A stretch of 36,320 bases of DNA, taken from NCBI GenBank assembly GCA_003221515.1, contig QHSI01000120.1, forward strand, positions 1 to 36,320. Direction: 5' to 3'. Origin of the DNA: Candidatus Rokuibacteriota bacterium. Lineage in GTDB: Bacteria; Methylomirabilota; Methylomirabilia; Rokubacteriales; CSP1-6. The translations under genes were made by a program, and so were the position numbers. The notes beneath the pieces were generated by a model. It was not told the DNA's origin. It was given only the letters and a program-made list of their open reading frames with translations, and did not search any database. Below, in pieces: positions 23,118-25,771 of the stretch; position 1 is the first letter of the stretch, and each line of letters begins with the position of its first letter.

Positions 23118-23426
23118 CTACGAGCTTTTGAAAGCGTTCATCGCGGTCACCAGGGCCGGCGTGCCACCGAACAGGTAGGCGACTTCGACGGCTTCCTGGA
23201 TCTCCGCCTCCGAGGCGCCGGCGCCGCGCGCGCGGTTGGCGATGTTCGTCACGCCGTCCGGGTGCGACTGAAGCGCGTCCACGATCATCGTCATGAGGTG
23301 CTTGTACTTCGCCGGGATGGCGCCGTCGCGCAGCACGTGCTCGCGCTGCGTCATGTAGGTCTCGACGAACTTCGGGTCACGCTGCTGCAGCGGCTGAATC
23401 CACGGGGGCGGGGTCGGCTGGGCCAT
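23118..23426 (-). CDS. Carboxymuconolactone decarboxylase (AhpD-like) family protein lacking active-site cysteines
   Basis: A 102-residue all-helical protein of the CMD/AhpD-like family: FVETYMTQREHVLRDGAIPAKYKHLMTMIVDAL, followed by the AGASEAEIQEAVEVAYLFGG helix that is highly characteristic of the family. In AhpD-type members a CxxC...H motif sits between these segments. Here the corresponding stretch is QSHPDGVTNIANRARG with no cysteine, so a thiol-peroxidase role is unlikely; a decarboxylase-like or purely structural role is possible. GGAGGG precedes the ATG by 6 nt. It follows the VapC gene by 19 bp on the same strand and may be co-transcribed with the redox/toxin-antitoxin block. Confidence 0.87.
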   Translation of the reverse strand: MAQPTPPPWIQPLQQRDPKFVETYMTQREHVLRDGAIPAKYKHLMTMIVDALQSHPDGVTNIANRARGAGASEAEIQEAVEVAYLFGGTPALVTAMNAFKSS

Positions 23427-23445
23427 CGGTCCCTCCTTATGACGG

Positions 23446-23814
23446 TCACCTGACGACGACGGTATCCGGAAGACCCTCGAAGTCCGTGTCGCTGCTTACC
23501 AGGATCGCGCCGAAGCGCCGAGCAGTAGCGTACACAAGCGAATCGGCCATGGCGAGACCGTGGTTGAGCGAGAGATCGGCGGCCTCGAGTGCGAGCGGCT
23601 CGTCGACGGGCGCAATGGTGGCGCGACGCAGTGCCGATACTGCTTCGATCGCGCGCTCCTCGCTGAGATCTCGCCGGATCACCTTGTAGACCTCGTAGAT
23701 CTCGAGCGCCGAAACGAGCAGCGGGTCGCGGCCCTCGATATAGGCGGCAAAGCGGCTCGCCTTCGACCGGTTGGCGAGATACTCGATCCAGCCACTCGAA
23801 TCGACCAGCGTCAG
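23446..23814 (-). CDS. vapC: VapC-family PIN-domain toxin, probable CTG start
   Basis: A PIN-domain ribonuclease of 122 residues. The acidic residues expected for Mg binding are all present: an Asp in LTLVDSSGWIEYL (residue 5), a Glu in VSALEIYEVYK, an Asp in AMADSLVYATA and an Asp in LVSSDTDFEGL. No ATG, GTG or TTG precedes the first strand. The codon located where the start must be is CTG at 23812-23814; its TG overlaps the VapB stop as CTGA, the position where ATGA is normal. Starting at the GTG at 23682 would delete the first Asp and more than a third of the fold. So either CTG is a true non-canonical start, or it is a mutated ATG. It is coupled to the VapB antitoxin gene. Confidence 0.75.
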   Translation of the reverse strand: MTLVDSSGWIEYLANRSKASRFAAYIEGRDPLLVSALEIYEVYKVIRRDLSEERAIEAVSALRRATIAPVDEPLALEAADLSLNHGLAMADSLVYATARRFGAILVSSDTDFEGLPDTVVVR

Positions 23815-24020
23815 AGGCGGTCCTTCTTCTCGCGAAGCCCCCGGGCGCTCACTCCGCGGGCGATGCCTCGGTAGGCGACCATCGGGCGCTCGGGAACGAG
23901 GAAGATCACCCCACCTTTATCGAGCACGGTGATCCGCATCCCCGGGCGTAGCCGCAGTCGCTCTCGCGCGCCGCGCGGGAGGACGAGTTGATACTTGCTG
24001 GACAGCGTCACGGTTTCCAT
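23811..24020 (-). CDS. vapB: VapB-type antitoxin (AbrB/MazE-like)
   Basis: A 69-residue DNA-binding antitoxin with the swapped-hairpin AbrB fold. It starts METVTLSSKYQLVLPRGARERLRLRPGMR, the canonical strand-loop-strand with K9 in the core SSKYQLVLP, continues with ITVLDKGGVIFLVPE, then a C-terminal tail (AYRGIARGVSARGLREK) that would cover the toxin. It represses its own operon and neutralises the PIN toxin in known pairs. The stop overlaps the start region of VapC by 4 bp. The start is ATG 24020; TAGCAT, 13 nt upstream on the minus strand, is a possible -10 box. The block is downstream of the OsmC/peroxiredoxin selenoprotein operon. Confidence 0.9.
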   Translation of the reverse strand: METVTLSSKYQLVLPRGARERLRLRPGMRITVLDKGGVIFLVPERPMVAYRGIARGVSARGLREKKDRL

Positions 24021-24057: not shown

Positions 24058-24573
24058 TCAAGGCTTACGCTCGAGCGGTGTGCCGTTGAGCAGCGTGCGG
24101 CCCGTCACCGGCACCGGGTTCTGCAACGCCTGCAGGACGAAGCAGCCGCGCTCGGCGTTGCGCACGACCTTCGCGACGCGCTCGGGCGGATCCGGCGAGT
24201 CGATCTCCAGCGTGGTCTCGGCGCCCACCATCCGGCCCTGGATCGTGTCGTTGAGCACCGAGCCGTCGACCCGGTAGCGCGCCGTCACCTTCATGCGCAT
24301 CCCGTTCACCGTGACCTTCAGCATGTGCCCGTACCGGGACACCTGGGTCATCAGTCAGAACGCGAGCGCGGCGCTGAAGTACATGAGCGGTGTGGGCGCC
24401 GAGCCGAGCCCGCCGAGGCTCGGTCCTTCGTCGGAGGCGAACGTCATGTGCCCGGCGCCGCCCCGGCTGACGGTCGCGAGCTTGAGGAACGGCGTGACCA
24501 GGTCGACGCTGGCGTCGAACACGATCTCCCGCGTCTCGACTTTCGGGTTGAGCCCCTCGGGCGCGGCGCTCAC
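24058..24573 (-). CDS. OsmC-like selenoprotein (in-frame UGA at catalytic Cys), copy 1
   Basis: Reading through one TGA (24355-24357) gives a 171-residue OsmC/Ohr-family thiol peroxidase. Sec73 sits in SAALAF-U-LMTQVSRYGHML, where the family's first redox Cys lies; the second redox Cys is kept in AERGCFVLQAL. Upstream, TREIVFDASVDLVT and GGLGSAPTPLMYFSAALAF form the N-terminal half, and VNGMRMKVTARYRVDGS plus PERVAKVVRNAERG the second. Right after the TGA lies a SECIS-like hairpin (24325-24342). The start is GTG 24573, overlapping the peroxiredoxin stop as GTGA, with GGAGG 6 nt upstream. Without recoding, one would see two unrelated fragments split at the active site. Likely role: reduction of organic hydroperoxides in the cytosol. 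Confidence 0.88.
24325..24342 (-). promoter_or_regulatory. Bacterial SECIS-like element in OsmC-like copy 1
   Basis: On the minus strand, 12 nt after the TGA, the RNA GUG-U-CCC-GGUAC-GGG-CAC folds into a stem with one bulged U and a GGUAC loop. E. coli fdhF has 3 bp, a bulged U, a short upper stem and a loop containing GGU at almost the same distance from UGA. The loop begins 19 nt after the UGA. Confidence 0.8.
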
Positions 24574-25232
24574 GACGCGCCTCCGTCGCGGAGCCCCTTC
24601 AGAATCTTGACGGTGTCGGCCGGCTCCGGTCGTCTCGTGTAATCGGGGTCGGCGTCGACCGCGCGGATCACGCCCCCGCGGTCGATCACGAAGCGGGCCG
24701 GCACCGGCAGCCGCCAGGTGCCGTCGCCGTTGCCGCGCGCCAGGTCGATGCCGAACTTGAGATAGATCGCGCACAGGTCGTCGGATAGGGTGAAGACCAG
24801 GCCGTACGCTTCGGCCACGCGGTTGCCGAAGTCGCGGAGCAGCGCGAACTCCATGGGCTTGGCCTCCTCGGTCTCACGCGGCGTGCGGGCCACCTGGGGC
24901 GAGATCACGGCCAGCGCCCCGCCGGCCGCGGTGATCTCGGGCAGGGCCTGCTGCAGAGCCTCCAGCTCTGCGTTGCAGTACGGTCACCAGCGGCCGCGGT
25001 AGAACGAGAGCACGACAGGCCCACGGGCCCGCAGCTCGGCGAGGCTGACGGTGCGGCCGGCCGCGTCGGGCAGCGCGAAGTCGGGCGCCTTCCGGCCGAC
25101 GGCGGCGATCCGGGTCATGATCCCGGAGGCGCGCAGGTCGTCGATGCTGCGCTCCATGACGGCGCGCGCCTCGGACGGGATGCGCGCCTTGGACGCCTCC
25201 CGCATCGTGTCGAGCCTTTCACGAAGTGTCAT
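24570..25232 (-). CDS. Peroxiredoxin-like selenoprotein (UxxC active site)
   Basis: With TGA 24984-24986 read as Sec, this is a 220-residue peroxiredoxin/AhpC-TSA-like protein. Sec83 lies in SFYRGRW-U-PYCNAELEAL, i.e. U-x-x-C in place of the standard CPYC. Preceding this is a typical thioredoxin-fold entry, GRKAPDFALPDAAGRTVSL, plus an N-terminal ~40-residue helical extension. Later come LAVISPQVAR, then EFALLRDFGNRVAEAYGLVF and the RFVIDRGGVIRAVDADPDY segment with its Arg. GGGAGG lies 5 nt before the ATG at 25232. A SECIS-like hairpin follows the UGA. It overlaps the OsmC-like gene downstream by 4 bp and is divergent, by 68 bp, from a second OsmC-like gene. Likely role: peroxide reduction with a selenolate nucleophile. 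Confidence 0.9.
24953..24971 (-). promoter_or_regulatory. Bacterial SECIS-like element in the peroxiredoxin-like gene
   Basis: Twelve nt after the UGA, GCAGAGC-UGGAG-GCUCUGC forms a perfect 7-bp stem with a 5-nt loop containing GG. The loop begins 19 nt after the UGA, the same distance as in OsmC-like copy 1. Bacterial SECIS elements need a loop guanine near the 5' side and a loop 16-37 nt from the UGA, both met here. Unlike copy 1 there is no bulged U. Confidence 0.75.
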
Positions 25233-25268
25233 GAGGACCTCCCAGGGCGGCATTCGCGTCGCCCTCGG

Positions 25269-25276
25269 TATATCAT
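25269..25276. promoter_or_regulatory. Candidate bidirectional promoter of the selenoprotein locus
   Basis: The 68 bp between the divergent peroxiredoxin-like and OsmC-like genes contain TATATCAT. On the plus strand TATCAT (25271-25276) is a 5/6 -10 match, 24 nt before the ATG at 25301. On the minus strand TATACC (25273-25268) is the corresponding weaker box. No -35 is obvious, as is common in this window. Confidence 0.4.
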
Positions 25277-25300
25277 GCGCTCCGAGCGAGGAGGTGTTCC

Positions 25301-25771
25301 ATGGGTCAGATCATCCACGTGACGAAGGCGCGCGTCGTCAAGGAACCGGGGCGCGGCATGAAGACGGCGTACCTGGACGCGTTCCCCGACACCCCCGTTC
25401 CCTACGGCATCCACGGGGGCATCAAGAAGTTCTACAAGACGGAGCCAGAGATCGAACGGCCCGCGACGCTGGACCATCTCGTGATGGCCGTGGCCGGCTG
25501 ACTCACGGGGAATATGGGAAGCGCGCTGGATGCGCGCGGGATCAAGAGCGCTCCGGACAACCTGGTCGCCCACGTCGAGGGGATCATCGAGGACGTCGAC
25601 GGCGTTCCTTTGATCACCACGATCCGCGTCCGCTACAGGTGCAAGATCCCCAAGGGCAAGCTGGCCGAGGCGGAGCGCGCGCTGGGCGTGCACGAGAAGG
25701 GCTGCCCGGCCAGCCAGTCCGTCCGCCGGGGCATCAACGTCGAGTACACCGCCGAGTTCGAAGAGGTGTGA
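25301..25771 (+). CDS. OsmC-like selenoprotein (in-frame UGA at catalytic Cys), copy 2
   Basis: Read through TGA 25499-25501, this gives a 156-residue OsmC/Ohr-like protein. Sec67 lies in LDHLVMAVAG-U-LTGNMGSALDARGI, the position of the family's catalytic Cys on the core helix. The second redox Cys is conserved in GVHEKGCPASQSV (about residue 137). The N-terminal half (ARVVKEPGRGMKTAYLDAF, then PYGIHGGIKKFYKTEPEIERPATLDHL) and the second (NLVAHVEGIIEDVDGVPLITTIRVRYR) fit the family. GAGGAGGT precedes the ATG by 5 nt. Copies 1 and 2 are clearly diverged members of the family, each with its own UGA and SECIS-like hairpin (25521-25537), which argues for real recoding rather than an error. It is divergent from the other two selenoprotein genes. 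Confidence 0.87.
25521..25537 (+). promoter_or_regulatory. Bacterial SECIS-like element in OsmC-like copy 2
   Basis: Nineteen nt after the UGA, GCGCGC-UGGAU-GCGCGC forms a perfect 6-bp stem. Its 5-nt loop, UGGAU, shares UGGA with the peroxiredoxin-like element. The loop starts 26 nt after the UGA, inside the usual 16-37 nt range. Confidence 0.7.

Follow-up and report, generated by a model that had tools for sequence, protein, structure and literature searches.

Do three adjacent genes in an uncultured bacterium, each interrupted by a single in-frame TGA codon, encode genuine selenoproteins and, if so, what kinds of selenoproteins are these and what might they do together? The question is raised by a locus in the window, that is, the whole stretch of 36,320 nucleotides of DNA analyzed here, which is contig C115 of a metagenome-assembled draft genome (5.10 Mb in 191 contigs, 95% complete, 2.3% contaminated). 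The closest kin of this genome are soil MAGs of Ca. Rokuibacteriota, e.g., AR22, AR23, AR26, AR30 and AR31, and the host, an uncultured soil bacterium, belongs with this group in the phylum that GTDB calls Methylomirabilota. Homologues of the three genes were sought in 95 genomes of the host class, and the comparison sequences are draft MAGs as well.

The locus and its surroundings

The features of the locus, with positions in the window, are the following.

24058-24573, minus strand: P2, predicted OsmC-like selenoprotein gene of the UxxT type, 171 aa when read through (NF041052, Pfam OsmC, PDB 3cje)
24355-24357, minus strand: P2 Sec UGA codon, residue 73, ALAF-U-LMTQ (sequence and homologues)
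24325-24342, minus strand: P2 probable SECIS hairpin, GUGUCCCGGUACGGGCAC (pairing in homologues)
24570-25232, minus strand: P1, predicted peroxiredoxin-fold selenoprotein gene of the Prx-like UxxC type, 220 aa when read through, stop TGA at 24572-24570
24984-24986, minus strand: P1 Sec UGA codon, residue 83, RGRW-U-PYC (sequence and homologues)
24953-24971, minus strand: P1 probable SECIS hairpin, GCAGAGC-UGGAG-GCUCUGC, with the loop GGN in relatives (compensatory changes)
25301-25771, plus strand: P3, predicted OsmC-like selenoprotein gene of the U-[LM]-T-G type, 156 aa (Pfam OsmC, AlphaFold)
25499-25501, plus strand: P3 Sec UGA codon, residue 67, AVAG-U-LTG (sequence and homologues)
25521-25537, plus strand: P3 probable SECIS hairpin, GCGCGC-UGGAU-GCGCGC (pairing in near and far homologues and in P3b, a sister group of P3)
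25233-25300, no strand: divergent intergenic region of 68 nt between P1 and P3, with Shine-Dalgarno-like sites for P1 (GGGAGG) and P3 (GAGGAGGT)

Along the window, an OsmC-like gene (P2) is followed by a Prx-like gene (P1) and another OsmC-like gene (P3), and the three frames, with one in-frame TGA each, are present where the first-pass annotation of this DNA had placed them. The GTG start of P2 overlaps the stop of P1 by 4 nt (GTGA), and all three starts are preceded by a Shine-Dalgarno-like sequence. Two divergent units had been proposed to share one short promoter region; the 68-nt gap is real and nearly identical in the relative G048, but a promoter scan of the gap found no sigma-70-type site. 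An Rfam scan of the window produced no match.

Directly downstream of P2 lies a pair of genes for a PIN-domain protein and a MazE-type antitoxin (23443-24020, minus strand); in G048, too, matches to PIN and MazE-type genes adjoin P2, the PIN match being short. Positions 23118-23426 (minus strand) encode a carboxymuconolactone-decarboxylase (CMD, AhpD-like) protein that, unlike the AhpD-type redox proteins, contains zero cysteines. This CMD gene was rejected as a part of the system: among the relatives, only the closest, G048, has it in the neighborhood, and it is missing from the examined stretches of G050, G051, G053 and G060, where P1-P2 persist.

In-frame TGA codons, Sec machinery and hairpins

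Homologues of P1, P2 and P3 are present in 36, 25 and 58 of the 95 genomes, respectively. Distinct homologues with a TGA at the Sec column and a frame that remains open beyond it number 35 for P1, 23 for P2, 47 for P3 and 20 for P3b; all homologues of at least 35% identity that span the TGA column have TGA there, and so does every match spanning the column in a profile search of the 95 genomes. As judged from these alignments, the conservation of TGA in the locus genes is far beyond chance.

The draft state of the assembly, together with the fragments into which automatic ORF calling splits the locus genes, might suggest that the TGAs reflect sequencing errors or are the stop codons of pseudogenes. 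The same codon, however, recurs in 125 distinct homologous genes (P1, P2, P3 and P3b) from dozens of genomes, with neither TAA nor TAG at the column in any of them, in agreement with the earlier argument that three recoding events side by side are hard to explain by sequencing error. In pairs with the window genes, the part of the gene past the TGA has a dN/dS of 0.13-0.29 in P1 and P2 and of 0.08-0.20 in P3, resembling the values upstream, which indicates that the coding sequence beyond the codon is under purifying selection, unlike that of pseudogenes. Decay or error is also at odds with the complete Sec machinery described below, and we consider it extremely improbable. A general reassignment of UGA to tryptophan or another standard residue in this lineage would account for the open frames and nothing more. 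Against it, UGA is the normal terminator of all three genes, the internal UGA sits only at columns of the redox-Cys type, and a selC-type tRNA with the anticodon TCA adjoins selA and selB, so that we give reassignment hardly any credence.

All four genes of the Sec machinery that the first-pass annotation had suggested looking for, selA, selB, selC and selD, are found in the same genome. The tRNA-Sec (69.8 bits, anticodon TCA), selA (567 bits) and selB (359 bits) lie together on contig C184, and a Sec-type selD (339 bits) on contig C150; across the class, selB scores above the cut-off in 84 of the 95 genomes. The selD gene (L019, G000:C150:27763-28707) has an in-frame TGA of its own (CAG-U-ASK), with a hairpin of about 8 pairs and the loop GAUC.

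A SECIS-like hairpin was defined as one with at least 6 pairs, G at the first two loop positions and a location 16-32 nt after the UGA. Such a hairpin is present in 121 of the 124 homologues tested, compared with 15-16% for positions drawn at random, or for TGA triplets, in the GC-rich window. The P1 stem is paired in 98% of the cells across 26 distinct homologues (25-50% in slid controls), with a compensatory C-G to U-A exchange in 8 of the 26; the P2 stem is paired in 93% of the cells across 14 distinct homologues, one pair being changed on both sides. The P3 stem is found at one and the same location in near and far homologues and in P3b, where it is 100% paired; because it is nearly invariant among the near homologues, its support comes from the far ones, in which 6 of the 7 stem pairs show double-sided changes. 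Slid controls for pairing were mostly far lower. Folding energy beats a codon-resampling control in 64% of the P2 homologues; for P1 and P3, it is not significant against codon-preserving resampling and thus does not discriminate, and positional and covariation tests were therefore used. The hairpin that had been reported at SECIS distance after each TGA is accordingly present, positionally conserved and covarying in all three genes, its loop starting with G, but its mere presence, given a background of about 15%, is a weak indication. It is the combination of conserved position and compensatory changes that makes the evidence for these predicted elements convincing.

P1, P2 and P3 thus combine a conserved in-frame UGA with selection on both sides of it, and the UGA is almost certainly read as selenocysteine, so far as comparative sequence analysis can tell. 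The central claim of the first-pass annotation, three adjacent selenoprotein genes, came through all the checks it had named that can be run by computer, and none of the contrary results that it had listed appeared.

Families of the three proteins

P1 matches Pfam AhpC-TSA (97.7 bits), and its AlphaFold model (pLDDT 93.5) retrieves peroxiredoxins as the first PDB matches. Its closest non-Sec homologues, from Methylobacterium, Pseudanabaena and Aureibacter, are 45-47% identical over nearly the full length and contain W-C-P-Y-C, such that the UGA corresponds to the first position of a CxxC motif. This position aligns with the active-site Thr of true peroxiredoxins (TxxC), and Cys86, the second Cys of the UxxC motif, which P1 indeed keeps as had been noted, occupies their peroxidatic-Cys column. 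The suggestion that each TGA falls at the catalytic Cys of the family is hence correct for the OsmC-like P2 and P3 but not for P1, where the UGA is in the Thr column. P1 lacks the classical signature PxxxTxxC/U, with Thr three residues before Cys or Sec, and possesses the AhpC/TSA fold and UxxC active site of Prx-like selenoproteins; as Sec replaces the Thr of TxxC and Cys86 takes the peroxidatic place, it is a UxxC Prx-like protein and not a TxxU peroxiredoxin. It shares fold and motif with the Prx-like UxxC selenoproteins of the Zhang and Gladyshev families (PMC1088965, PMC2398784 and Table 1 of PMC13188914), and differs from classical Sec-peroxiredoxins, which carry TxxU in the place of its UxxC. 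By its Cys homologues, P1 groups with the "peroxiredoxin-like family protein", with about 40 additional N-terminal residues; the Sec form of cd02970 is listed as UxxS in the PMC13188914 inventory, in contrast to the UxxC of P1.

The same genome contains a second, distant Prx-like gene with an in-frame TGA (GYW-U-PFC; L161, G000:C55:86782-87249, minus strand), where the TGA is followed by the inverted repeat GCTCCAA..TTGGAGC with the loop GGGC. In G052 (C351:4244-4810; L084, L111, L122), residues 1-141 of P1 are followed immediately by P2 sequence starting at residue 113, both on one strand, an arrangement that a deletion fusing the two genes and removing the Sec codon of P2 might have produced; an assembly error is possible.

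P2 scores 164.1 bits against NCBIfam NF041052 (OsmC_like_Se), well above the cut-off of 95, and 58.7 bits against Pfam OsmC, with 3cje as the PDB match. Its Sec column is occupied by Cys in a protein of Halorussus, an E. coli plasmid protein and PDB 3cje. With its U-L-M-T motif, P2 fits the OsmC-like UxxT selenoprotein, the Sargasso Sea family that NF041052 names "OsmC-related (seleno)protein". As had been pointed out, both OsmC-like proteins keep the second redox cysteine (C144 in P2, C135 in P3): P2, judged by sequence, and P3, judged by AlphaFold and Foldseek, combine the OsmC fold with a peroxidatic and a resolving position, Sec replacing the peroxidatic Cys.

P3 also matches Pfam OsmC (46.6 bits), and in its AlphaFold model (pLDDT 94.6), for which OsmC structures are the first matches and E. 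coli OsmC the best PDB match, Sec lies in the central helix; C135 is invariant and is expected to be the resolving partner of Sec. P3 resembles NF041052 in its OsmC fold, in the location of Sec and in having the second Cys, but its motif is U-[LM]-T-G rather than UxxT; it reaches only 13.3 bits against that family (cut-off 95; 22.4 bits for the P3 homologue L037), and an NCBIfam scan placed it above the cut-off of no family. TGA-containing relatives are found in Nitrospinota (75-81% identity) and in a Desulfobacteraceae MAG and another bacterium (44-45%); a search of plasmids gave no match. In line with the expectation of Cys at the TGA column, which is borne out for P1 and P2 homologues and for OsmC proteins at large, the Sec column of P3 holds Cys in the Thermus (1ukk) and E. 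coli OsmC proteins and in distant OsmC proteins from the class of the host. This correspondence extends only to distant OsmC proteins: no Cys form of P3 was found in the phylum or among the other relatives detected. Beyond the phylum, where the scan used patterns of close relatives only, such forms may exist.

In 16 of 30 far homologues of P3 (e.g., L039, L044, L052), the rare codon CTA is used for two Leu residues following the UGA. These codons create a further inverted repeat (GCTAGC...GCTAGC, positions 15-32) that overlaps the proposed SECIS; in selA and selB, CTA accounts for 1 of 152 Leu codons.

Reading and term searches of an inventory published in 2026, which covers 119 families and subfamilies of prokaryotic selenoproteins (PMC13188914), turned up several Prx-like UxxC entries and one OsmC-like entry (PF02566, UxxT). 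By motif and family profile, P1 and P2 are assigned to known selenoprotein families, Prx-like UxxC and NF041052 UxxT, respectively. The P3 subfamily did not turn up in the inventory, and under the rule given there (same domain, different Sec motif) it would be a separate subfamily; its absence from the literature searched and from NCBIfam is not proof of novelty. The literature search found no paper on selenoproteins in Rokubacteria; for one Methylomirabilota MAG, PMC13188914 gives 63 selenoprotein genes, reported as the largest predicted bacterial selenoproteome.

Clustering and proposed redox chemistry

Seven genomes of the genus or family carry P1 and P2 next to each other on one strand, namely, the window genome, G048, G050, G051, G053, G055 and G060, and P3 adjoins them in G048, G050 and G055. 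The flanking genes of the window that were tested are not shared beyond the closest relative, G048; since the flanks differ and P1-P2 persist, it is the cluster itself that is kept. In other genomes of the phylum, P3b adjoins a P1 homologue in G043, G044 and G059 and another W-U-P-F-C protein in G052 and G054, and in G028, one P3 is located beside a third type of such protein. The codon motif W-UGA-P-[YF]-C occurs within 1.6 kb of 11 of the 67 P3/P3b loci, compared with none in 130 kb of control strands, a pattern that supports a putative functional link between the OsmC-type and thioredoxin-fold selenoproteins. Several unrelated Sec genes are likewise adjacent in the known multi-selenoprotein neighborhoods, such as the Prx/SelW and Prx-like/AhpD-like GOS read pairs and the SAO and Tso operons, which PMC2398784 and PMC13188914 interpret as one pathway. 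The divergent combination of a Prx-like with two OsmC-type genes is not mentioned in the literature searched.

The best explanation of the locus, which we consider highly probable, is that it encodes three genuine selenoproteins of a bacterium with its own SelA, SelB, SelC and SelD, with hairpin-directed decoding of UGA as Sec and presumably a shared redox pathway. One UGA per mRNA would be read as Sec, directed by the hairpin just downstream, and the products would be thiol/selenol redox enzymes. Sec would act as the nucleophile in P2 and P3, located where OsmC has its peroxidatic Cys, and would pair with the second Cys (C144 and C135, respectively) in a selenenylsulfide. P1 would combine a UxxC pair like that of thioredoxin with the peroxiredoxin fold and either reduce a substrate of its own or regenerate its neighbors. 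The likeliest substrates would be hydroperoxides or other small electrophilic oxidants, the weakest step of this scheme.

With the classical Ohr/OsmC hydroperoxide reductases, P2 and P3 share the fold and a redox pair located at two corresponding positions. In Ohr, the peroxidatic Cys is surrounded by an Arg-Glu pair, with Glu51 ten residues before Cys61 (PMC5962072). P2 and P3, in contrast, have Sec and do not keep the Glu: neither alignment contains an acidic residue at this position (Cp-10), and in P3, Asp is invariant at -9 but no N-terminal Arg is, so that neither protein shows the Ohr combination of Glu at Cp-10 and a conserved N-terminal Arg. Canonical Ohr/OsmC peroxidase chemistry is thus not assured for P2 and P3 on the evidence of their sequences. 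Of the Sec-based peroxide-defense locus that the first-pass annotation had envisaged, the Sec part stands; given that the Ohr Glu is not conserved, the role in peroxide defense can only be called putative, although peroxide reduction by these proteins appears likely.

It is quite possible, without being probable, that true selenoproteins have a redox role here other than peroxide removal, P1 being a thiol:disulfide oxidoreductase and P2 and P3 acting on other electrophiles or in sulfane/thiol chemistry. The thioredoxin-like UxxC of P1, with U in the Thr column of true peroxiredoxins, points in this direction, as does the Ohr Glu (PMC5962072), which P2 lacks and for which P3 has an Asp one position away; moreover, the OsmC-like FTN_1133 is reported to lack thiol peroxidase activity (PMC4069020). 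Conversely, P2 and P3 both keep the two-residue redox pair, and the P1 fold best matches peroxiredoxins. More speculative and, in our judgment, unlikely is the proposal that P3 and P3b constitute a Sec-only OsmC subfamily with a dedicated selenol relay, where a Sec-containing thioredoxin-fold partner (P1 or another W-U-P-[YF]-C protein) would reduce the selenenylsulfide, replacing the lipoyl-dependent recycling of Ohr; the direction of the relay between the two types of selenoproteins is one that we infer.

Under the preferred reading, in which all three proteins are genuine selenoproteins, the locus offers a specific candidate for a redox pathway with multiple Sec proteins in a soil lineage that is uncultured, and P3 would add an OsmC-type selenoprotein subfamily whose members are truncated by gene callers. 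The presence of P3 in 58 of the 95 Methylomirabilota genomes and in Nitrospinota, with no Cys form found, raises the question of why some redox families seem to be Sec-only.
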